Source: a virus
Length of the DNA stretch: 24,302 nt
Virus record (IMG/VR): IMGVR_UViG_3300006916_000371
Span: 1-24,302 of that record
Direction: 5' to 3' (one strand)
The notes under the pieces were generated by a model, which had not been told where the DNA came from, did not search any database, and saw nothing but the letters and a program-made list of their open reading frames with translations. A program made the position numbers and the translations under genes. Shown piece after piece: positions 2,489 through 22,465 of the stretch (its first letter is position 1; each line of letters starts with the position of its first letter).

Positions 2489-2519
2489 AAAAAAGAGGGG
2501 AGCCATTAAGACCCCCCTC
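2489..2519 (-). terminator. Rho-independent terminator after the capsid gene
   Basis: Read on the minus strand, an 8-bp stem GAGGGGGG / CTCCCCTC (one G-T pair) closes a 9-base loop and is followed directly by six T residues. It lies 28 bases after the capsid stop and 28 bases before the tail tubular A start. T7 has its main late terminator at the same point, after gene 10. As in T7, some read-through would be required for the tail genes unless another promoter follows. Confidence 0.9.
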
Positions 2520-2547: not shown

Positions 2548-3489
2548 TTATGGTGCGCCTGTACGTACCTCTACGGCACCTTCGACACGGACCTTGCCGT
2601 GGCCAAGAGCCTGCTTTGCGACCAGCAGGGTATCCTGATAGTCAACACGGTGACCGGTGCTTTCGACAGCAAGGTCGATCAGCTTCACGGTGCCCACGGC
2701 GGACTCATGCATGATCAATGCGGCAGTCGTCGTGGCGTTCACGTCGTAGTCAGTACGGAACTGAGACGAGATATTCGTGATCGGCAGGTTGTTAGTCTTC
2801 ACAAGCTCAATGCCTGCAATACGAACAACGGAGCCATCAGCGTAGGAACCACGGCCATCCCAGTCCTTGTTGATCACGTCGGTAGTCCGAGCGAGCAAGT
2901 AGTACTGAGCCGGGCGCAGGAAGCCATAACGCTTGTCCTGTTCCGGTACGTCGTTCTCATCCAGCGCCTGTGCGCCATCGAAGAAAGCGGTGGCCAGATC
3001 GGCACCTACGGTCTTGGAGTTGGCAGACGTGATGATAGTACCACCGGGGAGACCAGTAACCTGGTTGGTAGCTGTACGAGCAGCGTTGATGCCGACCTGC
3101 ATAACGGTCTTATCGAACTGCTGGGCAAGGGCATCAGCACACTCAAAGGCGTACTGAGAGCGTACGTCATAGTGGGCCATTGCTTCATCAATATCAGCAA
3201 TCGCTACGTCGGAGATGAGCATGTCATCGACCGGGATCACGACTTCAGCGTTATTGATAGCCTTACCGGTCAACTGCGTACCGGGTGTGTGGTAGGAAGC
3301 GGTGTTCTTACCAAGGCGCGGGAACTGAGCAGACTTGCCGCTCTGGATGTTACGCACCATATGCTTGTCTAGGGTGACTGTCTGGGTCTGGAATGCAGCC
3401 AGAACTTCGCCACCAAAGACTTTTAGGAATAGGGCCTTATTATCGCCAGCAGCGTTAACCTGACCAATTCGGGTAGGAGTAGAAGCCAT
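2548..3489 (-). CDS. Major capsid protein (T7 gp10-like)
   Basis: Shell protein of the icosahedral head. The 313 residues are close to T7 gp10A (345). Family-like features are the N-terminal LFLKVFGGEVLAAFQ segment (residues 20-34), the NIQSGKSAQFPRLGK block (about 47-61), the VIPVDDMLISDVAIADIDEAMAHYD segment of the E-loop/P-domain region (about 84-108), and a C-terminal half with LRPAQYYLL. The start has a GGAAGGAA ribosome site. A strong terminator follows. The scaffold gene is not the upstream neighbour, unlike T7: about 4 kb of other genes lie between. A 122-base gap (3490-3611) precedes the gene; I found no good promoter or terminator in it. Confidence 0.95.
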   Translation of the reverse strand: MASTPTRIGQVNAAGDNKALFLKVFGGEVLAAFQTQTVTLDKHMVRNIQSGKSAQFPRLGKNTASYHTPGTQLTGKAINNAEVVIPVDDMLISDVAIADIDEAMAHYDVRSQYAFECADALAQQFDKTVMQVGINAARTATNQVTGLPGGTIITSANSKTVGADLATAFFDGAQALDENDVPEQDKRYGFLRPAQYYLLARTTDVINKDWDGRGSYADGSVVRIAGIELVKTNNLPITNISSQFRTDYDVNATTTAALIMHESAVGTVKLIDLAVESTGHRVDYQDTLLVAKQALGHGKVRVEGAVEVRTGAP

Positions 3490-3611
3490 AAGCTTTTCCT
3501 TCCTTTCATCTTGGGGTTGGAGTTGGGGTGCTTTCCGCAGACCGCTTAATGCGTTCCAAAGGTTGTCCGTCGCAACGGGCCAGTGATGCTATTCAGCGTC
3601 TTTGGGTAGCG

Positions 3612-5588
3612 TTATTCGCGCTCAATGTACTCAGTAAGAGGGAGTGTAAGCGGGAAATGGAGTTCGGTGATGAACGGTGGGGGTTCATACCGGGTAGGCT
3701 TTCCGTTCACTGTTACATGACCGGGGCCGACATTGTAGGTAACAAGGACTGAGGACGCCGTATCGAGCGTCACAGCTTGTCCTGTGAAGGTGAGTAAGCC
3801 CTTAAACACACTCATAGCCTTCTTACGCGAGAGTGAAGCAAGTGTACCGGAGACCGTAAGGCCACCCGTAGCAATGCTCTGCGCGTGATACTTTTGGAGG
3901 GATGTCTCTCCGCCTGTCACTGTAAGAGTACCCGGGGAGGGTTCTTGAGAGGATTTGCGAGAGAGACTGGCGGACTGGCCAGTGAACACCGCACTACCGG
4001 GTGGTACTGAGTACTTCGATAGTTTGGCTATTGTTGTAGCCAGCCCTGAGACGTTCATAACACCATCAGACACGTCTTGTCCATGGTACTTGTATGTGCT
4101 GTTGGTTTGTCCTGAGAGATTCATAACACCATCAGACACATCTTGCCCGTGGTACTTGTAGGTGCTGTTAGCCTGCCCTGAGAAGCTCAGTGAGCCATCA
4201 GCGACATCTTGCCCATGGCGTCTGGAGAGACTGCTGGTCTGCCCTGAGAAGCTCATCGAGCCGTCAGCGGCATCTTGCCCATGGCGTCTGTAGGTGCTGT
4301 TGGTCTTCCCTGTGAAGCTCATAGAGCCTTTGGTTGCCGTATGCTGCACTAACGTTATCGGAGGAGCAATAGCAATACTGTACAGGACCCTCTGTTCCGT
4401 GAAGGTATTAGCACTGATTAGCGTTAGCGTTCCACTGTCGATCACTTCGGTGGAGCAAAGGACGGCATGGACGCCAAAGCTTGCTGCGTTGGAAACAAAG
4501 CTGGCGACCTCAGGCATCCCGGGGATGTAGCCAGTGTCTAGGCCGTCATCAGAACCAAGGAAGGCGAGGTGCAGGCAATTGCCCTGCGTCGTCGTGATGT
4601 CGAGGGGCTGACTGAAAGCTACGCCACCACCTTCGCCTCTCCATCCGCTGGTCTCGATGGGCGTCGTTGCGTCGTGGCCGCTGATGCGGGAGGCTGTGAT
4701 GCAGGCACGCGTTGTTACGTTGGTGGTAAAGCTGTAGGTAGCAGGTTCGCTTGCGCCGCCAATCTTGTAGCAGGCGGTCGTCGTCAGCTCCGATGTACTG
4801 CCTGAGATGTTCTGATAGAGGGCCGTGAAGCCACTCGGCATGGTGATTGTACGGGAGCCATCGACCACGATGAACAAGACGATCAGGCTGTCTTCACACT
4901 CCGCTTGAGTACCGGGGCGGTTCACTGTGGCGGTTGTGCCTGTGGTAATAAGGCCCGTGGTTGTCTCATCCAGAGTGGGACCACTGTAGCTGGCATCGCT
5001 TGTCTCAACACCTAGAACAGGATCATTGGCAGTGCCAGAGCTGCTGGCCGAGTAGATTGTTATCTGCTCAGGTGTACTGCTGTCAGCGGGAGCGTTGTTG
5101 GTACGCTGGCGGTCAGAGGCCATGACGAAGCGGAGATCGCCTCTCAGGGCAACCGCTGTCTTCAGTGCGGTCTCGCTGGAATATTTCACCACCTGATTGG
5201 TAGCGGTCATAATAGAGGAGTCGCAGCTGGCCCAGAGAGTCTTTGATCCTAGGTCTGAGCCTGCCACAAAGTCGCCTGAGGTCAGAGTACCGCCACCCCA
5301 GTCATGCTCTCGAATCTCGAAGGTGAAGTCCTGAGTGGACTCATCGTTTTGAAAGCGGAAGTAGAAATCAGCAAGGTCAATGGTCTCACCTGTAGGGAGG
5401 CCGGAGCAATCCACTTCGCCGAAGTATTCTCTGCAATAGTACTGAAACGTCTCCTCTTGTCCAACTTCAAGCCAGCTGGTGGTGCTAATGGAAAATCTGC
5501 CGAGACCTTCACGGGCGTCGGAATAGGAGAAGTCCCGGCTATTGATAACCCCATCAGTGTCTTCAACGCGTAGGACGTGAGTTGTCAT
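3612..5588 (-). CDS. 658-residue phage surface/structural protein with C-terminal 22-residue repeats
   Basis: Unrecognised as a named protein. Residues 1 to about 200 are beta-rich and polar (DTDGVINSRDF, HDWGGGTLTSGDF). Residues about 220-415 look like a domain frequent in phage fibre or decoration proteins: DSLIVLFIVVDGSRTITMP, then a GFTALYQ and EPATYSFT pattern. From residue 421, eight consecutive units of exactly 22 residues follow, each opening G-x-[LMA]-x-[FVL]-[ST]-G, then a ninth weaker unit and a short tail. Low lysine and cysteine and high serine/threonine content suit a secreted or virion beta structure. The start overlaps the upstream stop as ATGA. It lies immediately before the capsid gene, so a head decoration, head fibre or adhesin role is plausible; this is inference. 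Confidence 0.8.
   Translation of the reverse strand: MTTHVLRVEDTDGVINSRDFSYSDAREGLGRFSISTTSWLEVGQEETFQYYCREYFGEVDCSGLPTGETIDLADFYFRFQNDESTQDFTFEIREHDWGGGTLTSGDFVAGSDLGSKTLWASCDSSIMTATNQVVKYSSETALKTAVALRGDLRFVMASDRQRTNNAPADSSTPEQITIYSASSSGTANDPVLGVETSDASYSGPTLDETTTGLITTGTTATVNRPGTQAECEDSLIVLFIVVDGSRTITMPSGFTALYQNISGSTSELTTTACYKIGGASEPATYSFTTNVTTRACITASRISGHDATTPIETSGWRGEGGGVAFSQPLDITTTQGNCLHLAFLGSDDGLDTGYIPGMPEVASFVSNAASFGVHAVLCSTEVIDSGTLTLISANTFTEQRVLYSIAIAPPITLVQHTATKGSMSFTGKTNSTYRRHGQDAADGSMSFSGQTSSLSRRHGQDVADGSLSFSGQANSTYKYHGQDVSDGVMNLSGQTNSTYKYHGQDVSDGVMNVSGLATTIAKLSKYSVPPGSAVFTGQSASLSRKSSQEPSPGTLTVTGGETSLQKYHAQSIATGGLTVSGTLASLSRKKAMSVFKGLLTFTGQAVTLDTASSVLVTYNVGPGHVTVNGKPTRYEPPPFITELHFPLTLPLTEYIERE
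3801..4328 (-). repeat. Eight in-frame 66-bp tandem repeats inside the 658-residue gene
   Basis: The units encode residues 421-596 of the host gene, 22 residues each with no length change. The first four are most alike: each carries HGQD near its end except that the last variable part differs, and units 3 and 4 share the same 13-residue stretch NSTYKYHGQDVSD. Later units keep only the G-x-x-x-x-[ST]-G opening and the S-L or S-T position. The DNA of units 3 and 4 is also nearly identical, which suggests recent duplication on top of an old repeat. Confidence 0.93.
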
Positions 5589-6040
5589 TGGTGTCTCCTC
5601 AGGCCCTCCATAAGATCGACCAAACGGTCAACTGGGTTTTCCCCAATGGCCGGGTCATCGACGCGGATGGGGTTCTTTAAGATATGCTTCACGCCATCGA
5701 CATCGACTACGGCTTTCGCTTGGCCATTGTTACGTTCGATGGGACGACTGTCTGCGTCCAAGGCCATCACCTCAAGCCACAGACCATCGTCAGCCACTAC
5801 GGACTTGATGACGACAAAGCGTCGGTCGCTGTCCGGGCGACGGATGACCTTTGGGTCGTTGCCTAGAGCGGACTTCAAAGCCATGCGGCGGTTGGCACGA
5901 GCCTCATCGCGCTTCTGGCGGGGCGTAGTGCTAGGGTTCGCTAGAATGCGGTCCTGCTGGCGTCGTGCCGAGCGAGCTACGGACAGCTCATAGGATTCAT
6001 TACGATTACTTGCGTCGTCTAAAGCGTCGTGATGAGACAT
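5585..6040 (-). CDS. Hypothetical phage protein, 151 residues
   Basis: Not recognised. The first 60 residues are very polar and charged (ARSARRQQDRILANPSTTP, then KRDEARANRRMAL), probably helical. The remainder is beta-like and acidic, with RRFVVIKSVVADDGLWLEVMA, a VDVDGVKHIL segment, and a helical end VDRLVDLMEGLRRHQ. There is no signal peptide or membrane segment. An AGGAGT ribosome site precedes the ATG at 6040, and the stop overlaps the start of the 658-residue gene as ATGA, so the two are probably co-translated. A virion accessory or a chaperone for the large neighbour are both possible; the sequence does not decide. Confidence 0.75.
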   Translation of the reverse strand: MSHHDALDDASNRNESYELSVARSARRQQDRILANPSTTPRQKRDEARANRRMALKSALGNDPKVIRRPDSDRRFVVIKSVVADDGLWLEVMALDADSRPIERNNGQAKAVVDVDGVKHILKNPIRVDDPAIGENPVDRLVDLMEGLRRHQ

Positions 6041-6058
6041 ACAGCACTCCTAAGCTTA

Positions 6059-6475
6059 TCATGCAGCGGTAAAAATACCAGCAGCATCAATGACAACCTC
6101 AAAGTCGTGAGTAGTATTGTTCTGGTCAGTCGTCATGTCCTCGTAGGCAATGATCTGGTTGGTAGCCACAATGTACAGAACAGCGTACCGGGCGTTGGAA
6201 AACCCTGCTGCGTTCTCACTCCATAGGAATGTTGCTGGGCTATCAAAGGTTACCGTACCAGCGGCCTCAGAGACCGTGCAGGTTCCTGCTGAAATACCGC
6301 CTGCGGTGTACCCGGTGCCTGACACTTCTGTAAGAGATGTCACCAGGTTGTTGCCGCTAGGGCTAGTTGCTGAGGTGTACAGACCCATCTTGACGTTGTC
6401 TGCTCCCTCGAGAGAGGTTTGAGAACCACCGGTGATGCGGTCCTCAATGAATGTTTCGTTAATCTGCCACGCCAT
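6059..6475 (-). CDS. Probable phage structural protein, 138 residues
   Basis: Resembles a common type of small phage structural protein: an N-terminal helix (INETFIEDRI), then VKMGLYTSATSPSG, an E-x-SGTGYTAGG turn around residues 51-60, VTFDSPATFLWSENAAG, ARYAVLYIVATNQIIAYEDM, and a C-terminal beta end. This order of 'alLyt..., GY.aGG, W.., aR.avLY' is seen in many head or tail accessory proteins of tailed phages (recalled pattern, not a search). The start has a GGAGA ribosome site and overlaps the previous gene by 17 bases. It belongs to the module between scaffold and capsid. Exact location in the virion is unknown. Confidence 0.75.
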   Translation of the reverse strand: MAWQINETFIEDRITGGSQTSLEGADNVKMGLYTSATSPSGNNLVTSLTEVSGTGYTAGGISAGTCTVSEAAGTVTFDSPATFLWSENAAGFSNARYAVLYIVATNQIIAYEDMTTDQNNTTHDFEVVIDAAGIFTAA

Positions 6476-6776
6476 CTAACGGGTCTCCAAGTTGCATATT
6501 CAATTCAATCAGCTCGTGACGCAGGTGTGCGGGAATCTCTTCCCCCTTCGCACGATGACGGGCGATGATGGTCTTGAGGCGTTGCTTACGGCCTCTCCAT
6601 CGGCGCACATGGGCGTCTGTTCGACGCTGTCCTGTGGCTATGGTGACGGGTTGCCCAACCCAAGCGGTGGTCTTAGGGTCCTCTACAGGCGGCTTAGGCG
6701 CTACTGTAGCCATTGCTTCATCCAGCTCCTTCGCTGTGATGGAAGGCTGGAGCTTTCGTTTGATCCATCCAAGCAT
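6459..6776 (-). CDS. Hypothetical phage protein, 105 residues, basic
   Basis: Not recognised. It opens with a short amphipathic MLGWIKRKLQ, has a proline-rich linker (APKPPVEDPK), and then a strongly basic helical segment RRTDAHVRRWRGRKQRLKTI followed by HLRHELIELNMQLG. The basic stretch could bind nucleic acid or an acidic partner such as the scaffold; this is a guess from charge alone. The start lies one base after the stop of the preceding gene, and the end overlaps the next gene by 17 bases, so it is embedded in the scaffold-capsid module. Its frame is kept open and its neighbours are tightly packed, which supports a real gene. Confidence 0.65.
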   Translation of the reverse strand: MLGWIKRKLQPSITAKELDEAMATVAPKPPVEDPKTTAWVGQPVTIATGQRRTDAHVRRWRGRKQRLKTIIARHRAKGEEIPAHLRHELIELNMQLGDPLDGVAD

Positions 6777-6777
6777 A

Positions 6778-7062
6778 TTAGAACCTCATTTCCACCCTGA
6801 TAGGACCACCTGATACACCTGAGGAAACTGCTCGCATCTCAGGGAAGGCGGTGACCCGTCGCCCGTCGTCCTGTGTGAAGGTAATGATATCGAGCCACGG
6901 CATGTTAGAGGTCGTGCGTCCTTGTAGGGTCACGGTCCCCGTGCTTGTGATCTTGCATTGAACAACGCCGTACTCGACCCTGTTGAAGTTGTCGATCTCA
7001 GTGAGCGCACCGGTGTGATCCGTGGCCACGTCATCGATCAGTACGTAGGTTGACTTAACCAT
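6778..7062 (-). CDS. Small beta-rich phage protein, 94 residues
   Basis: Not recognised by name. The whole product looks like a small beta sandwich: VEYGVVQCKITSTGTVTLQG, then a R-T-x-S-x-x-PWLDIITF strand, and a C-terminal GGPIRVEMRF strand. Proteins with a 'tv.lqgr.....W.dv..ft' pattern occur as small virion or decoration proteins in several podoviruses (recalled, not searched). It overlaps the upstream holin-like gene by 8 bases and is followed closely by the 105-residue gene. A head accessory role is reasonable from the neighbourhood. Confidence 0.7.
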   Translation of the reverse strand: MVKSTYVLIDDVATDHTGALTEIDNFNRVEYGVVQCKITSTGTVTLQGRTTSNMPWLDIITFTQDDGRRVTAFPEMRAVSSGVSGGPIRVEMRF

Positions 7063-7444
7063 CTCGAGACATGACCTCCATGTTGGTACGGGTGAACCAC
7101 CAGCGCAATCCGAACGATGCGGCTACGGTTCCGAGGAACGCCACCTGATACCAAACGGGCGCTTGGGATACGTAGTCCCAGCCTCTCATAACGTGATCCT
7201 GAATACCCGGGAAGAATGATCCCACAAAGGGAGCTGACAGAATGATCGTCAGGTATTCATCCTTCCATGAGTATTGGGATTGACGGAGAGCTTCGGTATC
7301 CCAGTCGCGCTCTGCGGTGGCGACCTTGGCCTGAGCCTCAGCCTGCGCTACGGCGACCTTAACTTTACCCTCAGCCTTGACTTGTCGGGTTTTCACCCAG
7401 CCGCTGAGGACGCTGGTGATGCCCTTTACGATGAGTGAAAACAT
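7055..7444 (-). CDS. Holin-like membrane protein of the 3-TM (GTA holin) type
   Basis: 129 residues. An N-terminal moderately hydrophobic stretch (FSLIVKGITSVLSGW) is followed by a highly charged, alanine-rich helix (residues about 20-60, KVKVAVAQAEAQAKVATAE), a conserved-looking SWKDEYLTIILSAPFVGSF start of a membrane segment, and a second segment WYQVAFLGTVAASFGLRWWF near residues 97-116. This layout, including 'W..E......S...DE' and the final 'fG.rw', matches the family of holins with three membrane segments described for gene transfer agents (Pfam GTA_holin_3TM, from memory). A holin lets the amidase reach the cell wall. Its place between scaffold and capsid, about 8.5 kb from the amidase gene, is unusual for a T7-like phage. 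Confidence 0.75.
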   Translation of the reverse strand: MFSLIVKGITSVLSGWVKTRQVKAEGKVKVAVAQAEAQAKVATAERDWDTEALRQSQYSWKDEYLTIILSAPFVGSFFPGIQDHVMRGWDYVSQAPVWYQVAFLGTVAASFGLRWWFTRTNMEVMSRDG

Positions 7445-7455
7445 GACTGTAGTCC

Positions 7456-8241
7456 TTACAGGTTGCTGACTGCCATCCGCTCCATGACCTTATTACGGAA
7501 GGCTGGGTCGGTCTTGTAGTCAGGCGTGTTGATATCTTTGAGCCACTGAGCGCGAGACTCATACGGCTTGGGTCCACTAGGCATACTGGTGCCCTTGCCT
7601 TGGAGAAGGTTCGGCTCTTTGGTAGCGTTGTACTGAGCGACTAGGCCCTTCACGGCTACGTTGATCTCGTCCTTAGAGCCACTCTCCATGACGTTGTTGT
7701 AGACGGTCTTCTCGTCCACCGTCATGTTGTCATTGGCCCACGCCATCATTGACTCGAAGTTGTCCTTGCCACCGGCCAGGTTATGGATGTCATTGGTCAA
7801 CTGCGTGGCCAACGCCTCCTGCCCCTGAATGAAGGCATCGATCATTTCATCCGACAAGCCCTTGGAGTTCAGGGCCGAGCGGGTCTCATCGGTGAGCTTC
7901 CCGTCGTTGTCGTTCCATTCGCTGGACAAGGCATTCATATCGAAGCCAAGGTCAGAGACCACCTGATCAGCTTCTTCGGCTGTGGGGGTTTCTACTGGTT
8001 CGCTTGAAGCCTCGACTGCTTCGTCGCCGGTGCTACCGCCCTGCCCAAGCTTACGCTCGAGTTCACGATAGCTCTCGATCAGCTCTTCCGTACTGGAGAA
8101 CTTACCAAGGATCTTACCGTCGCCATCCGAGGAACCATCGTTGTCTGTGGTCTTACCCTCGGCGGCACCACTAGCTGTCAAGTTGGGATCGACAGCGGGA
8201 GCTTCGTCGGTCTGGAAGGTAACTGTCTGCTGCTGTGACAT
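7456..8241 (-). CDS. Scaffolding protein (T7 gp9-like)
   Basis: Internal scaffold for procapsid assembly, removed before the head matures. 261 residues against about 307 for T7 gp9. The N-terminal 45 residues are acidic and disordered-looking. They are followed by KILGKFSSTEELIESYRELE, the typical 'GKFKs.edLi.aY.eLE.klG' element of T7-like scaffolds, then an acidic low-complexity linker, helical segments, and a basic C-terminal end (YKTDPAFRNKVMERMAVSNL) expected to bind the capsid. It follows the portal as in T7, separated by one small gene. Unlike T7, the capsid gene does not come next. Confidence 0.9.
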   Translation of the reverse strand: MSQQQTVTFQTDEAPAVDPNLTASGAAEGKTTDNDGSSDGDGKILGKFSSTEELIESYRELERKLGQGGSTGDEAVEASSEPVETPTAEEADQVVSDLGFDMNALSSEWNDNDGKLTDETRSALNSKGLSDEMIDAFIQGQEALATQLTNDIHNLAGGKDNFESMMAWANDNMTVDEKTVYNNVMESGSKDEINVAVKGLVAQYNATKEPNLLQGKGTSMPSGPKPYESRAQWLKDINTPDYKTDPAFRNKVMERMAVSNL

Positions 8242-8255
8242 GATACTACCTCCTG

Positions 8256-8465
8256 CTAATTCTTGGTGATGATGTTGCCGTAAGCACTCACGGAGCTATG
8301 CTCGTCCAGCTTACCACCAACAGCCGCAAGGTTTTCCTTTGCGCGTTGCTGTGCTTCTGGATCCGGGTCAGCGCCGGGGATGATGTCATCGCTAGTGTCG
8401 ATCACCACATCGGTTTCCTTGGCATCGGCTGATAGCGTAGTTGCCGTCGGTTTCTTGTTAGCCAT
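8256..8465 (-). CDS. Small acidic hypothetical protein between portal and scaffold
   Basis: 69 residues if it starts at the ATG at 8465 (MANKKPTATTLSADAKET); a GTG three codons earlier (8474) is possible. The chosen start has a GAGTGAG ribosome site and overlaps the portal stop by 8 bases. The product is acidic and probably disordered in the middle (VVIDTSDDIIPGADPDPEAQ), with a short helix (RAKENLAAVGGKL). No family recognised. Small genes at this place are common in marine T7-like phages and may encode head accessory proteins, which is inference. Confidence 0.65.
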   Translation of the reverse strand: MANKKPTATTLSADAKETDVVIDTSDDIIPGADPDPEAQQRAKENLAAVGGKLDEHSSVSAYGNIITKN

Positions 8466-9999
8466 TTTGCTCACTCTCTTGTTGTTGTAGCATGCCCATC
8501 TGGTCAGCCGCCTTGTCGATAAGACCCGGAGCTGCCTGTTGAGCCAGCGCAGCCATCTGTTGCTGCATCATTTTCTGTTGGAACTCTTCCTCTGAAAGAA
8601 GGAACGCACCTCGCTCGATACCGTGCCCTACGGTTAGCTGATCCAAGATAGCGTTCTCGTCCAGCCGCATGAGGACTTCAGGACGTACCTCTGCCAGAGC
8701 TGTGATGTCCGACAGGAACCCACGGAGACGGGTCAGGTCGTGCCCACGGCCAAGTGCTTCAAGACCTGTTACAATGACAGGCTCGATGTTCTTGACCTTA
8801 ACGTCGTGCTGGTACATCAGGCGCTTAACAATGGGGAGCTGGAGTTCTACCGCAAGGTTGGAATAGAAACCACCTAGGGCGTCTTCAAGCTCACCAGCGA
8901 CGAACCTGATTTCCTCAGCCGTCACACGCTCTGCATCACGCTGGACCGAGGTGTTCATTAGGAAGGCCATGCTCAGGCGTTCTTCAATGCGCCGGATTGC
9001 AGCGTCAGCGATCCGTAGATCAGCGAACTTCTCAAGCTGCAAAGCCACTACGTCATTAGCCTCACCTACAACGAACCCGCCGTTCTCTGTTTCGAGAAGG
9101 TCGTCGATGCGTGTGATGCCATTAGGGCTGACGAGGAACTTAACCTCAGCAGCCGCAGCGGCAGCTTCAACTACACTTTGGGATAAACCTTCGAGGGAGC
9201 GCAGGTCGCCTGCATATTCCTCAAGGTAGGACCGTCCGTAGTCTTCACCATCAACGCGAGTTGCGCGGAGGGCGATCCAAGGACTGGCATCCTTCGGGTA
9301 GGAGCCGTCAGTGCCGGGAATAACCTGGCCGTTAACTTCCTGCTGGACCTGCCAGCGGCTGTCAATCAGCTTAATGTGCGTGTAGAGGTCGATGTCCTCA
9401 TCACTGTCTTCGATATTATCAAGCAGAAGACTTGCTTGTTCTGGGAGTGTACGTGCTGAGACCTTCTCGCATACCACAATTTCGTATGGGAGATCGTCGG
9501 CCCCTCGGGCTACGACGTACTGGCGGAGTGAAAACACTCTGGGATTACCCGTGTCGGGGTCCAAATACACCAGCATGTTGCCTGTAATTAGCAGATGTTT
9601 AAGGGTCTCAAAGATAGCAATGCGTAGGGTTGACGCCTCGGTGGCGCGTTGCATTGTCTTTTCTGCTTCGGCAAGTGCTAGGTCGATCTCTTCTGCGAGA
9701 CCTTCCTGTTCGTCCAGTTCTTTCTTGACCGACGGTTCAATCGTCAGCCTAAAGAATGGAGCATTAGGGGGGAACAAAGCGAGCAGCAGCTTGGACGCAA
9801 GGTTGTTGACACCTCGTGCGCCCATGCCTTGATAGGCTGTCTCGAATGTTGTGTAGGCGTTGTCGCCTGTTTTAGGAAACAACGTCGGGATCGTCAGCTC
9901 AGATACTTCCTCAGCACGGAGCGCGTAAGGGCTGCGCTTCTCAGCAAGCTTCTTGTACCGGGAGGCGGCTGTAACGACTTCAAGGGTATGTTCCATCAT
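8458..9999 (-). CDS. Portal / head-tail connector protein (T7 gp8-like)
   Basis: Forms the dodecameric portal through which DNA is packaged and ejected. 513 residues against 536 in T7. Family-like parts: SRYKKLAEKRSPYALRAEEV and SELTIPTLFP near the N-terminus, QGMGARGVNNLASKLLLALFPPN (about residues 56-78), LLITGNMLVYLD (about 131-142), GRSYLEEYAGDLRSLEGLS (about 253-271), and a C-terminal region VTAEEIRFVAGELEDALGGFYS. The very end is glutamine-rich, as in homologues. There are two adjacent Met codons at the start; the first (9999) is used here. It is preceded by a gp7.3-like gene and followed by a small gene and the scaffold. Confidence 0.95.
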   Translation of the reverse strand: MMEHTLEVVTAASRYKKLAEKRSPYALRAEEVSELTIPTLFPKTGDNAYTTFETAYQGMGARGVNNLASKLLLALFPPNAPFFRLTIEPSVKKELDEQEGLAEEIDLALAEAEKTMQRATEASTLRIAIFETLKHLLITGNMLVYLDPDTGNPRVFSLRQYVVARGADDLPYEIVVCEKVSARTLPEQASLLLDNIEDSDEDIDLYTHIKLIDSRWQVQQEVNGQVIPGTDGSYPKDASPWIALRATRVDGEDYGRSYLEEYAGDLRSLEGLSQSVVEAAAAAAEVKFLVSPNGITRIDDLLETENGGFVVGEANDVVALQLEKFADLRIADAAIRRIEERLSMAFLMNTSVQRDAERVTAEEIRFVAGELEDALGGFYSNLAVELQLPIVKRLMYQHDVKVKNIEPVIVTGLEALGRGHDLTRLRGFLSDITALAEVRPEVLMRLDENAILDQLTVGHGIERGAFLLSEEEFQQKMMQQQMAALAQQAAPGLIDKAADQMGMLQQQESEQNG

Positions 10000-10425: not shown

Positions 10426-10445
10426 GTCTCCCTGTTAAGGTGGTT
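10426..10445 (-). promoter_or_regulatory. Candidate phage RNAP promoter for the late genes (divergent copy)
   Basis: The minus strand reads AACCACCTTAACAGGGAGAC. It keeps the ten-base ACCACCTTAA of the promoter before the RNAP gene, then differs (CAGGGAGAC instead of GAGAGAC). It lies in a 65-base non-coding gap (10403-10467) between the last replication-type gene and the first late gene, with a predicted leader of about 30 bases. Position and core match make it likely; the altered start region suggests different strength. Confidence 0.65.
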
Positions 10446-10467
10446 GAATTTGGAAAGCCTCATAATA

Positions 10468-15733: not shown

Positions 15734-15931
15734 CTACTTATTCAAGCGATAGCGGGAGTAGCGGACCCCGTTGGGATCGGTATGCATCTCAGTGTTGATG
15801 TAGTGACCAGCCTTACGCAGCTCGCGGATAACCACAGGGAGGTGGTCAATCTGGTAGTGCATGCTGGCCTCGCGCTTGGAGATAGGGCCATGCTTCATCA
15901 AGTGACTAAGCACTTTCGTTGTCTGTGTCAT
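15734..15931 (-). CDS. Small helix-turn-helix protein, 65 residues
   Basis: Likely DNA-binding. The start at 15931 (MTQTTKVLSHLMKHG) has an AAGGAAAGGA ribosome site; an earlier in-frame Met lies inside the amidase gene. The layout is a winged helix: VLSHLMKHGPISKREASMHY, then IDHLPVVIRELRKAGH, then a wing HTDPNG..YSRYRLNK. This 'vl.hL..G.is..eA...y.i..l...i.eLR..G..I' pattern matches a short phage HTH domain I know as HTH_39. It may control phage or host genes, or act at replication origins. It is not an obvious CI or Cro repressor. It overlaps the amidase gene by 26 bases. Confidence 0.8.
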   Translation of the reverse strand: MTQTTKVLSHLMKHGPISKREASMHYQIDHLPVVIRELRKAGHYINTEMHTDPNGVRYSRYRLNK

Positions 15932-16361
15932 TGTTTGTGTCCTTTCCTTGAGATAACCACGCGCCAACGTCGAAGGTGGGGCATGACTTATTACTGGTTA
16001 GATCGCGGTGACCTACGATATCCTCAATGGGATGCTCGTCCTTGAGACGCTCGATCAGCTCTTTCAGGGACTTGTACTGAGCCTCGGTGAAGTTCCTCTC
16101 GTCGTTACCATCCGCACCCTTGCCGCCGATCAGGCATATGCCCAAGCTGTGCCGGTTGTAGCCGTAAGCATGAGCGCCTTGCTGATGCACTGGGCGACCG
16201 TTCTCGACTGTACCATCGCGCTTGATCACGTAGTGGTAGCCGATGTCCAGCCATCCGTTAGCCCGGTGCCAGCGTCTGATCGTACTGGTGCCAATGTCCA
16301 TCTCAGGCGGTGTCCACGAGCAGTGAATAACCAGCATGTTAATCTTGCGGGAGTTACTCAT
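15906..16361 (-). CDS. N-acetylmuramoyl-L-alanine amidase (T7 lysozyme, gp3.5-like)
   Basis: Cleaves the amide bond between muramic acid and L-alanine in peptidoglycan; in T7 it also binds and inhibits the phage RNAP. With the start at 16361 the length is 151 residues, the same as T7 gp3.5. Zinc ligands are H13, H118 and C127; the catalytic Tyr is Y42 in GYHYVI, and K125 in NKSCPTF matches the T7 catalytic Lys. The N-terminal MSNSRKINMLVIHCSWT fits the family. The start overlaps the stop of the endonuclease gene as ATGA with no strong ribosome site, so coupled translation is likely. No signal peptide, so a holin is needed for export. Confidence 0.96.
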   Translation of the reverse strand: MSNSRKINMLVIHCSWTPPEMDIGTSTIRRWHRANGWLDIGYHYVIKRDGTVENGRPVHQQGAHAYGYNRHSLGICLIGGKGADGNDERNFTEAQYKSLKELIERLKDEHPIEDIVGHRDLTSNKSCPTFDVGAWLSQGKDTNNDTDNESA

Positions 16362-16807
16362 GGTAACCACGCCAGCTTCTGGACGTAGGCTTTGGAGGCG
16401 CGTGTAGTCTCGCTGTCCTCTGTTAACCATTCATCAGGAATATCCTTGTGAGCATACTTGAAGCCATGCTTCTCACTCCAAAGACCATAGGAAGTCTTAC
16501 TCGCCTTGTTGAGTAGTTGACGCGAGTTAGCGAAGACGAACCTCAAGTCGATTTGCGGATGCTCTTCACGCAGCCTCAAGTGCTTGGTTCTGTCGGCGGA
16601 TTGGAACCACCCCTTAACCTCGATCACGATACCGTTGGGAAGAACGAAGTCAGGCCGGAAGCGGGTGTGCCGGTGGATAAGATACTTAACCGTGCCGGGT
16701 TCATAGGCAAAGGCCATCTTTCGGGCCTCAAGAGACGACGCAATGCGTTCCTCGAAGCCCGACCGATAACCTAGCGATGTCATCACAGTCTTGTTCTTAG
16801 ACGGCAT
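16358..16807 (-). CDS. Endonuclease I, Holliday junction resolvase (T7 gp3-like)
   Basis: Resolves branched DNA before packaging and degrades host DNA. The start at 16807 (MPSKNKTVMTSLGYRSG) gives 149 residues, the same length as T7 gp3. The PD-(D/E)xK nuclease core is RPDFVLPNGIVIEVKG, with D53, E63 and K65; E20 in SGFEERIA matches the fourth T7 active-site residue. The start comes one base after the SSB stop. The end overlaps the amidase start as ATGA. The order SSB, endonuclease, lysozyme, primase is the same as in T7 (2.5, 3, 3.5, 4). Confidence 0.95.
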   Translation of the reverse strand: MPSKNKTVMTSLGYRSGFEERIASSLEARKMAFAYEPGTVKYLIHRHTRFRPDFVLPNGIVIEVKGWFQSADRTKHLRLREEHPQIDLRFVFANSRQLLNKASKTSYGLWSEKHGFKYAHKDIPDEWLTEDSETTRASKAYVQKLAWLP

Positions 16808-17886: not shown

Positions 17887-17901
17887 AGGGCCTCTCTTTC
17901 A

Positions 17902-17923
17902 GTCTCTCTTATGGTGGTGGTTT
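17902..17923 (-). promoter_or_regulatory. Phage RNAP promoter, tandem copy 1
   Basis: The minus strand reads AAACCACCACCATAAGAGAG followed by AC. It is identical to the copy 30 bases upstream (17932) except for the one N position in ACCACCNTAAGAGAGAC. By analogy with T7 the start would be the G after TAA, at 17908, leaving a leader of about 20 bases before the 88-residue gene. It lies in the non-coding gap after the RNAP gene, where T7 also has its first phage promoters. Confidence 0.85.
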
Positions 17924-17931
17924 CTGATAGC

Positions 17932-17953
17932 GTCTCTCTTAGGGTGGTGGTTT
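17932..17953 (-). promoter_or_regulatory. Phage RNAP promoter, tandem copy 2
   Basis: The minus strand reads AAACCACCACCCTAAGAGAG followed by AC, 30 bases upstream of copy 1. The preceding CAG is also shared. The predicted start is the G at 17938. It lies just after the RNAP stop and a small 5-bp hairpin (17960-17974, no T tract). Two exact-core copies in a 90-base gap are very unlikely by chance. Confidence 0.85.
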
Positions 17954-20430: not shown

Positions 20431-20457
20431 CCTGTATCTCCTAATGCCCATCCTCGG

Positions 20458-20480
20458 GTCTCTCTTAAGGTGGTGGTGTT
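20458..20480 (-). promoter_or_regulatory. Phage RNAP promoter upstream of the RNAP gene
   Basis: The minus strand contains CACCACCTTAAGAGAGAC, matching the tandem copies at 17902 and 17932 in all fixed positions of ACCACCNTAAGAGAGAC. The predicted start is G at 20464, giving a leader of about 34 bases with the RNAP ribosome site in it. It lies just after the stop of the ArfA-like gene, which shares its first base. Self-transcription of the RNAP is the obvious inference. Confidence 0.82.
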
Positions 20481-21635: not shown

Positions 21636-21734
21636 CTATTCAAGGTTGCTGGCTACCCATAGCAGCCCGACGTACAACGACAGGTAAATCACAAGCGTCA
21701 ACACGCCCTCGAGAAAGGTCATAAGGTCAAACAT
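21636..21734 (-). CDS. 32-residue single-pass membrane peptide
   Basis: Too short for usual gene finding. The product starts MFDLMTFLEGVLTLVIYLSL and then YVGLLWVASNLE. Residues 7-28 form one continuous hydrophobic segment with few charges (an acidic residue before it and one at the end). It is preceded by an AAGGAGA ribosome site and its ATG shares a base with the methyltransferase stop (TAATG). Its own stop lies inside the AGGAGA ribosome site of the integrase. This chain of signals argues for a translated gene. Small membrane peptides of early phage regions can act as holin-like, superinfection or host-membrane factors; which applies here is unknown. Confidence 0.72.
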   Translation of the reverse strand: MFDLMTFLEGVLTLVIYLSLYVGLLWVASNLE

Positions 21735-22465
21735 TAGCGGTCTCCTTTGGTGGTATTATTGGATTCAAACACGGCCTTCGCCCAGCCTCGAGGCGTGGCG
21801 CTGCGTATGTTCTTGGTCTTGAGGGATTTGCCCCCAAGCTTTTTCCAAGCGGTGTTGCTCTTGGTGATGCGACCGTCCTTACGTACGGATTGCTCACAGA
21901 TCGGATCAACGGGCCGCTTGGGTGGTACGACAAACCCGCCACCGTGCCAGATGCAGGTCAGCTTGGTGTATGCATCCTGTGCCGGGATGTAGTCAGGCCA
22001 TAGCGGGTGCGGTTCATCTGGTTCCAGGTAATCTCCATAGTCGCATGGATCAAACGTGAAGTCAGGCTTCCGCCAAAGCGTTGAGACCCTGCCTCGAGGG
22101 TTCTCGAGATACCACGGGCAACCGATGGTCTCCGCAATCTCGACGCCCCACAACACGAGGTCCATAGCCTTCTTCTGAAAGTCAGGATCCCGGGCAGCTT
22201 TGGCGTGCCAATGGCGGGCACCAGACGACGCTAGGTCAGTACAAGGCGGGAACATGGAGACAAAGTCAGCGCGGACAGTCTTCGCCCATGCTCGGTCGCC
22301 CTTGTCGGTGGCATCCCAGCCCACGAACCGCATGTTGCCCTCCACACGCTCTGGCTGGTGCTGGATGTCACAATTCAAGACGGTGTACCCTGCGTCAGCC
22401 CATGGCTGGCCTGCTGTCCCCGTGTAGTCGAACAGGGAAAGCACCTTCGGCGAGATCTTGGACAT
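21734..22465 (-). CDS. DNA cytosine methyltransferase-like protein
   Basis: 243 residues. The start has SAM-binding motif I in the form LSLFDYTGTAGQPWADAGY (residues 9-27), then NCDIQ as the acidic motif II, MFPPCTDLASSG with the catalytic-type Pro-Cys at P74-C75, and LENPRG (E121-N122-P123) in place of the usual motif VI ENV. This matches the short phage C5-cytosine methyltransferase type. The product is shorter than typical restriction-system methylases, and no separate target-recognition domain is evident, so specificity may be low or the substrate unusual. No restriction enzyme is nearby, so self-protection from host restriction is the likely role (inference). Ribosome site AGGAGG lies inside the end of the upstream gene. 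Confidence 0.8.
   Translation of the reverse strand: MSKISPKVLSLFDYTGTAGQPWADAGYTVLNCDIQHQPERVEGNMRFVGWDATDKGDRAWAKTVRADFVSMFPPCTDLASSGARHWHAKAARDPDFQKKAMDLVLWGVEIAETIGCPWYLENPRGRVSTLWRKPDFTFDPCDYGDYLEPDEPHPLWPDYIPAQDAYTKLTCIWHGGGFVVPPKRPVDPICEQSVRKDGRITKSNTAWKKLGGKSLKTKNIRSATPRGWAKAVFESNNTTKGDR

Follow-up and report, generated by a model that had tools for sequence, protein, structure and literature searches.

T7-like phages repeatedly carry cargo, most often lysis genes, in a slot of the late operon that separates scaffold from capsid. In the phage lineage analyzed here the slot and its first gene, p129, are already known in kind. However, the remaining cargo, the gene set p94-p105-p138-p151-p658, is unusual, and in our sequence searches the five were met together in no other lineage. 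We consider it somewhat more probable than not that these five genes form a lineage-specific accessory adsorption module, i.e., a group of virion-surface proteins carried on the head or the tail and encoded behind a putative holin. No published description of a scaffold-capsid cargo slot as such was found in the open-licence literature.

The DNA analyzed (hereafter the window) comprises all 24,302 bp of an IMG/VR record and represents a fragment of a T7-like phage, which we regard as temperate because a tyrosine integrase (PF00589; 20496-21626) is encoded immediately 5' of the RNA polymerase. The affiliation to the T7-like phages (former Autographiviridae) is given by a putative single-subunit RNA polymerase, the portal (PF12236), the scaffold (7456..8241, minus strand; PF05396, 1.5e-14; phrog_1052, 6.9e-45), the major capsid protein (2548..3489, minus strand; PF21703, 1.8e-65; phrog_267, 1.3e-76) and tail tube genes that align with those of relatives. 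All the late genes are located on the minus strand in the order portal, scaffold, six-gene interval, capsid and tail tubes. Upstream of them are found the genes for an exonuclease, a DNA polymerase, a primase-helicase, an amidase of the T7 lysozyme type at its T7-like place (15906..16430, minus strand; PF01510, 6.1e-23), the RNA polymerase and the integrase; the two polymerases and the primase-helicase were named from their sequence, the RNA polymerase from an 824-aa reading frame and its position. A 243-aa ORF at 21734-22465 is, by its sequence, a putative DNA methylase-type gene. A near twin of the window (IMGVR_UViG_3300009001_000057, 30,323 bp) extends further right. Beyond the window's reach it contains a B12-type ribonucleotide reductase (8152-9831 of the twin), inserted after tail tube B and followed by the internal virion proteins, and a tail fibre of 1,048 aa carrying the T7-type domain PF03906 at its N-terminus. 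Another coiled, hydrophobic-ended protein, incomplete at the contig end, is encoded 3' of this fibre.

The gap between scaffold and capsid measures 3,966 bp and consists of six minus-strand ORFs coding, from the scaffold side, for proteins of 129, 94, 105, 138, 151 and 658 aa. Counted from the scaffold gene, their spacing is +11, -8, +1, -17, +18 and -4 bp, with 122 bp separating the last gene from the capsid gene, and most of them are preceded by a purine-rich Shine-Dalgarno-like stretch. The six genes announced in a preliminary description of this DNA are thus in place, and the same order is kept in an independent contig, the twin, where all six are intact and syntenic (dN/dS below 1 in the comparison with the window). 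The same description took the module to be used as one unit, and the tight packing agrees with this, as does a single predicted late transcription unit with no promoter-like site inside. A motif near ACCACCNTAAGAGAGAC occurs four times in the window (0.07 matches were expected in shuffles), always on the minus strand and in intergenic gaps, and its copies are probably phage RNA polymerase promoters. One lies 5' of the RNA polymerase gene (20457-20478), two lie 3' of it (17931-17952 and 17901-17922) and a weaker version precedes the late genes (10427-10448). When a promoter specific to the module or to the capsid gene was sought, no copy of the motif appeared inside the module or 5' of the capsid gene. 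Because of this, and because a strong intrinsic terminator-like site (2495..2519, minus strand; a 10-pair stem and a T run) follows the capsid gene at the position of T7 T-phi, scaffold, module and capsid are predicted to share one late transcription unit running from 10427-10448 to 2519-2495.

The placement of these genes had been presented as unusual with respect to T7. The contrast with T7 is real, but a gene-filled interval is common in relatives and the position is not special. We have surveyed the slot in 43 distinct relatives, found by capsid-protein search, in which both the scaffold and the capsid gene were readable. Less than 500 bp separated the scaffold and capsid matches in 14 of them, an endolysin and a holin-like gene were present in the slot in 20 (most with Rz/Rz1-like genes too) and esterase/fibre-like genes in 2 others, L014 and L118; these counts are not frequencies for the whole T7-like group because the capsid-search set leans towards rhizobial prophages. 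Among the endolysins were M15 peptidases, GH19-like enzymes and amidases, and Desulfovibrio phage ProddE has a lysozyme. The annotated slots comprise an endolysin, a class II holin and both spanins in Rhizobium phage Pasto (MT708545), an endolysin and a holin in ProddE (MZ666938) and an amidase in Mesorhizobium phage Lo5R7ANS (KM199771). These three phages share with the window the presence of extra genes in the slot, their orientation, a first gene right after the scaffold and a separate gap before the capsid gene. However, what they carry there is an endolysin, a holin and often spanins, whereas in the window five further genes accompany the single holin-like one and the amidase lies outside the slot. 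Both the cultured pelagiphage HTVC011P (Stopavirus) and Fussvirus S30-C28 resemble the window in having a p129 homologue in the slot (38% identity in S30-C28), but beside it they contain only very small basic genes and neither p94, p138 nor a large repeat protein. What the window shares with described relatives is, then, the slot and the 129-aa gene, and not the other five genes.

The scaffold-capsid intervals of L014 (6710-9862) and L118 (8692-9842) contain fibre-like and helical genes, to which L014 adds a weak relative of p94 and an esterase of the GDSL type; they represent a second lineage with apparent surface-protein cargo in the slot. L118 was also the one distant match obtained when GTDB genomes were searched with the capsid protein for prophage relatives. 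In Rhizobium phages TRX32-1 and RHEph01 (L003, 9350-10984; L109, 6303-7925) a related protein of 540-544 aa, preceded by a small gene and named as an esterase in one RefSeq record, is instead encoded directly after the capsid gene.

The first gene of the interval, p129 (7055..7444, minus strand), codes for a small, holin-like membrane protein with two hydrophobic segments, and the phrog_2524 profile (5.1e-30) covers its residues 1-118, i.e., nearly its full length. Besides the homologues in the slots of HTVC011P and S30-C28, there is one in HTVC019P, where it sits in the right arm, 5' of the large terminase gene. The likeliest, moderately favoured role of p129 is that of a holin: p129-like genes are found close to a lysozyme in HMO-2011 and to an M15 peptidase in CRP-6, and some are annotated as DUF3154, a former designation for a family of 3-TM holins. 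It is nevertheless quite conceivable, if less probable, that p129 is a membrane protein with another role and that the interval holds no lysis gene. The protein has no match in Pfam or NCBIfam, holin families included, and homology to the slot-holin family of the relatives had to be rejected, the hhalign profile comparison not being significant. Alteromonas phage R8W has a p129-like gene besides its own class II holin, and the further hydrophobic-ended protein after the twin's tail fibre also fits a non-holin p129. The same-sized gp49 of Dinoroseobacter phage R7L, located just before the p94 relative of that phage, shows no similarity to p129. No endolysin was detected among the six genes by Pfam search, and no Rz- or Rz1-like match either. 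The relocated lysis gene proposed for this interval is only partly sustained: homologues of p129 occupy this slot in cultured relatives and in some phages lie near lysins, but p129 matches no holin family and the endolysin stays at its T7-like place.

At the other end of the interval, p658 (3612..5588, minus strand) codes for a large multi-domain repeat protein, putatively a fibre or adhesin. Its description as a repeat protein is confirmed by nine 22-residue units with a 66-bp period (3735..4328, minus strand), starting at residues 421, 443, ... 597. The corresponding protein of the twin has 616 aa, lacks two of the nine units and is 78% identical over the MAFFT alignment. Divergence is highest in the first 55 residues (49% identical) and lowest in residues 206-258 and the C-terminal 47 (>90% identical). 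The dN/dS of p658 was 0.55, while the portal, scaffold, capsid and tail tube genes gave 0.05-0.10; all these values come from a single genome pair, window and twin. Such fast evolution and change in repeat number are typical of surface-exposed adhesins, though relaxed constraint would give a similar picture. The T7 gp17-type N-terminal domain PF03906 is absent from p658, which has no Pfam match at all and no informative homologue in IMG/VR or isolate records. An AlphaFold model built from the two-sequence alignment reached a pLDDT of 29 and was discarded.

Three of the small genes are almost restricted to this lineage. The product of p94 (6778..7062, minus strand; phrog_34406, 0.00099), beta-rich by sequence, is a relative of R7L gp50 (40% identity over 58 aa); it is not similar to RHEph01 gp39 or to the 103-aa protein encoded after the capsid gene of TRX32-1. 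The next gene, p105 (6459..6776, minus strand), matched no family in PHROGs, Pfam or NCBIfam, and its product is indeed the basic protein that had been noted in the module, with 19 K+R against 13 D+E. Both p94 and p105 are 100% identical between window and twin, while p151 (5585..6040, minus strand), which overlaps p658 by 4 bp and is translationally coupled to it, is 90% identical with a dN/dS of 0.29. Searches of IMG/VR retrieved the twin and one more near-identical contig with p94, and only the twin with p151 and p658; among the fetched loci, p105 was found only in the lineage of window and twin. In the isolate records, queried with p94 and p658, gp50 was the one relative of p94, and p658 had one partial match. 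Sequence searches of the PDB with p94, p138 and p658 gave nothing meaningful.

By contrast with this narrow distribution, p138 (6059..6475, minus strand) belongs to the phrog_644 family (1.2e-9, residues 2-136), and its homologue in L055 has relatives in 215 phage records. The family gene follows the coat gene and precedes a 1,003-aa protein in CRP-207, lies a short way 3' of the capsid gene in both MiniFlayer and L058, and in L055 is placed between the capsid and head-tail connector genes, followed by genes for 143, 156 and 689 aa. In Gordonia, Mycobacterium and Caulobacter phages it is among or beside minor tail genes. The tail fibre of MiniFlayer and three hypothetical proteins have been proposed by its authors as an adsorption module (PMC10690885), and we infer from the position of the p138-like gp6 that it belongs to these three. 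What likens the MiniFlayer block to the module described here is a member of the p138 family adjoining the capsid gene on its 3' side, with genes for a large protein and a fibre next; however, MiniFlayer is an unrelated satellite phage of Streptomyces and the other genes of its module are not homologous. The p138 model (pLDDT 74.8, mostly strands) had no match in the PDB below E 0.001. Among the predicted structures of BFVD, its fold matched a 484-aa protein of Atu_ph07 and a structural protein of Agrobacterium phage 7-7-1 that has 502 aa, the length of gp107; gp107 was detected in virions by mass spectrometry (PMC3517404). The capsids of both phages bear fibres or whiskers (PMC12796354, PMC6102473), but no 7-7-1 protein has been identified as the capsid fibre, so the likeness is only a lead. 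It exists at the level of fold only, since profiles of 7-7-1 gp103, gp105 and gp107 as candidate homologues were not significant. The structural block gp102-gp111 of 7-7-1 resembles the module in combining small beta-rich proteins with larger repeat proteins (PMC3517404, PMC12796354), although 7-7-1 is contractile-tailed and has no significant sequence homology to it. Most proteins of gp103-gp111 (L119, 6387-12112) are virion proteins confirmed by mass spectrometry, two have short repeats, and they are possible candidates for the capsid fibre of 7-7-1.

These data are compatible with several ways of employing the five genes. The one that we mildly prefer, an accessory adsorption module, makes no choice between head and tail. 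In the division of labour that we infer, p94 and p138, both beta-rich, would fasten to the virion a fibre or adhesin formed by p658, with the repeats as its shaft, p105 and p151 would help assembly, and p129, first in the slot, would probably serve lysis. Given the late transcription predicted for the module together with scaffold and capsid, its products would be made in step with particle assembly. The virion would gain a second, variable host-contact element, which may aid sticking to the host, and it would be additional to the ordinary tail fibre because the twin keeps a normal T7-type one. The extra fibres suggested in the preliminary description thus receive indirect support from this retained fibre, from the repeats of p658, their change in number and its fast evolution, and from the contexts and fold of p138.

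As to where such a module would be attached, several receptor-binding proteins occur in some T7-like phages, and this together with the tail-gene contexts of the p138 family makes it a tentative option that the products attach to the short tail next to the gp17-like fibre, giving a branching receptor-binding apparatus; p658, however, has no T7-type fibre domain at its N-terminus, and its gene is remote from that of the tail fibre. Anchoring to the capsid, with p94 and p138 binding the head shell and p658 projecting as a head fibre, appears unlikely. The module does lie between two head genes, p138-like genes directly follow capsid genes in CRP-207, MiniFlayer and L058, and both phages with matching folds have capsid fibres or whiskers. 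But the family is also found among minor tail genes, the 7-7-1 fibre protein is unidentified, and position in the slot is no guide to role because lysis genes sit there too. Least probable is a moron set parked in the slot that would act outside the virion, for instance altering the lysogen surface or excluding other phages. Such a set would suit a temperate phage, a slot that accepts unrelated cargo and a fast-evolving p658, but the genes are tightly packed on the same strand in a predicted late operon with scaffold and capsid and do not form an independent lysogenic unit, and the relatives of p138 sit in structural gene blocks.

Returning to the adsorption module, a bolder version, which we hold improbable, is a T7-like podovirus with capsid-borne fibres, in which p94 and p138 would decorate the head, p658 would be a repeat fibre of variable length, and the whole would be a portable, p138-marked module inserted beside capsid genes by different types of phage. 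More generally, T7-like phages have a hot spot for interchangeable late cargo between two of their core head genes, where several unrelated lysis cassettes are found and, in no fewer than two lineages, genes that appear to encode fibres or esterases. The phrog_644 family of p138, with more than 200 phage records, is a possible marker of adsorption modules beside capsid genes, and if it does mark them, it would provide candidates for the head-fibre proteins of phages such as 7-7-1.
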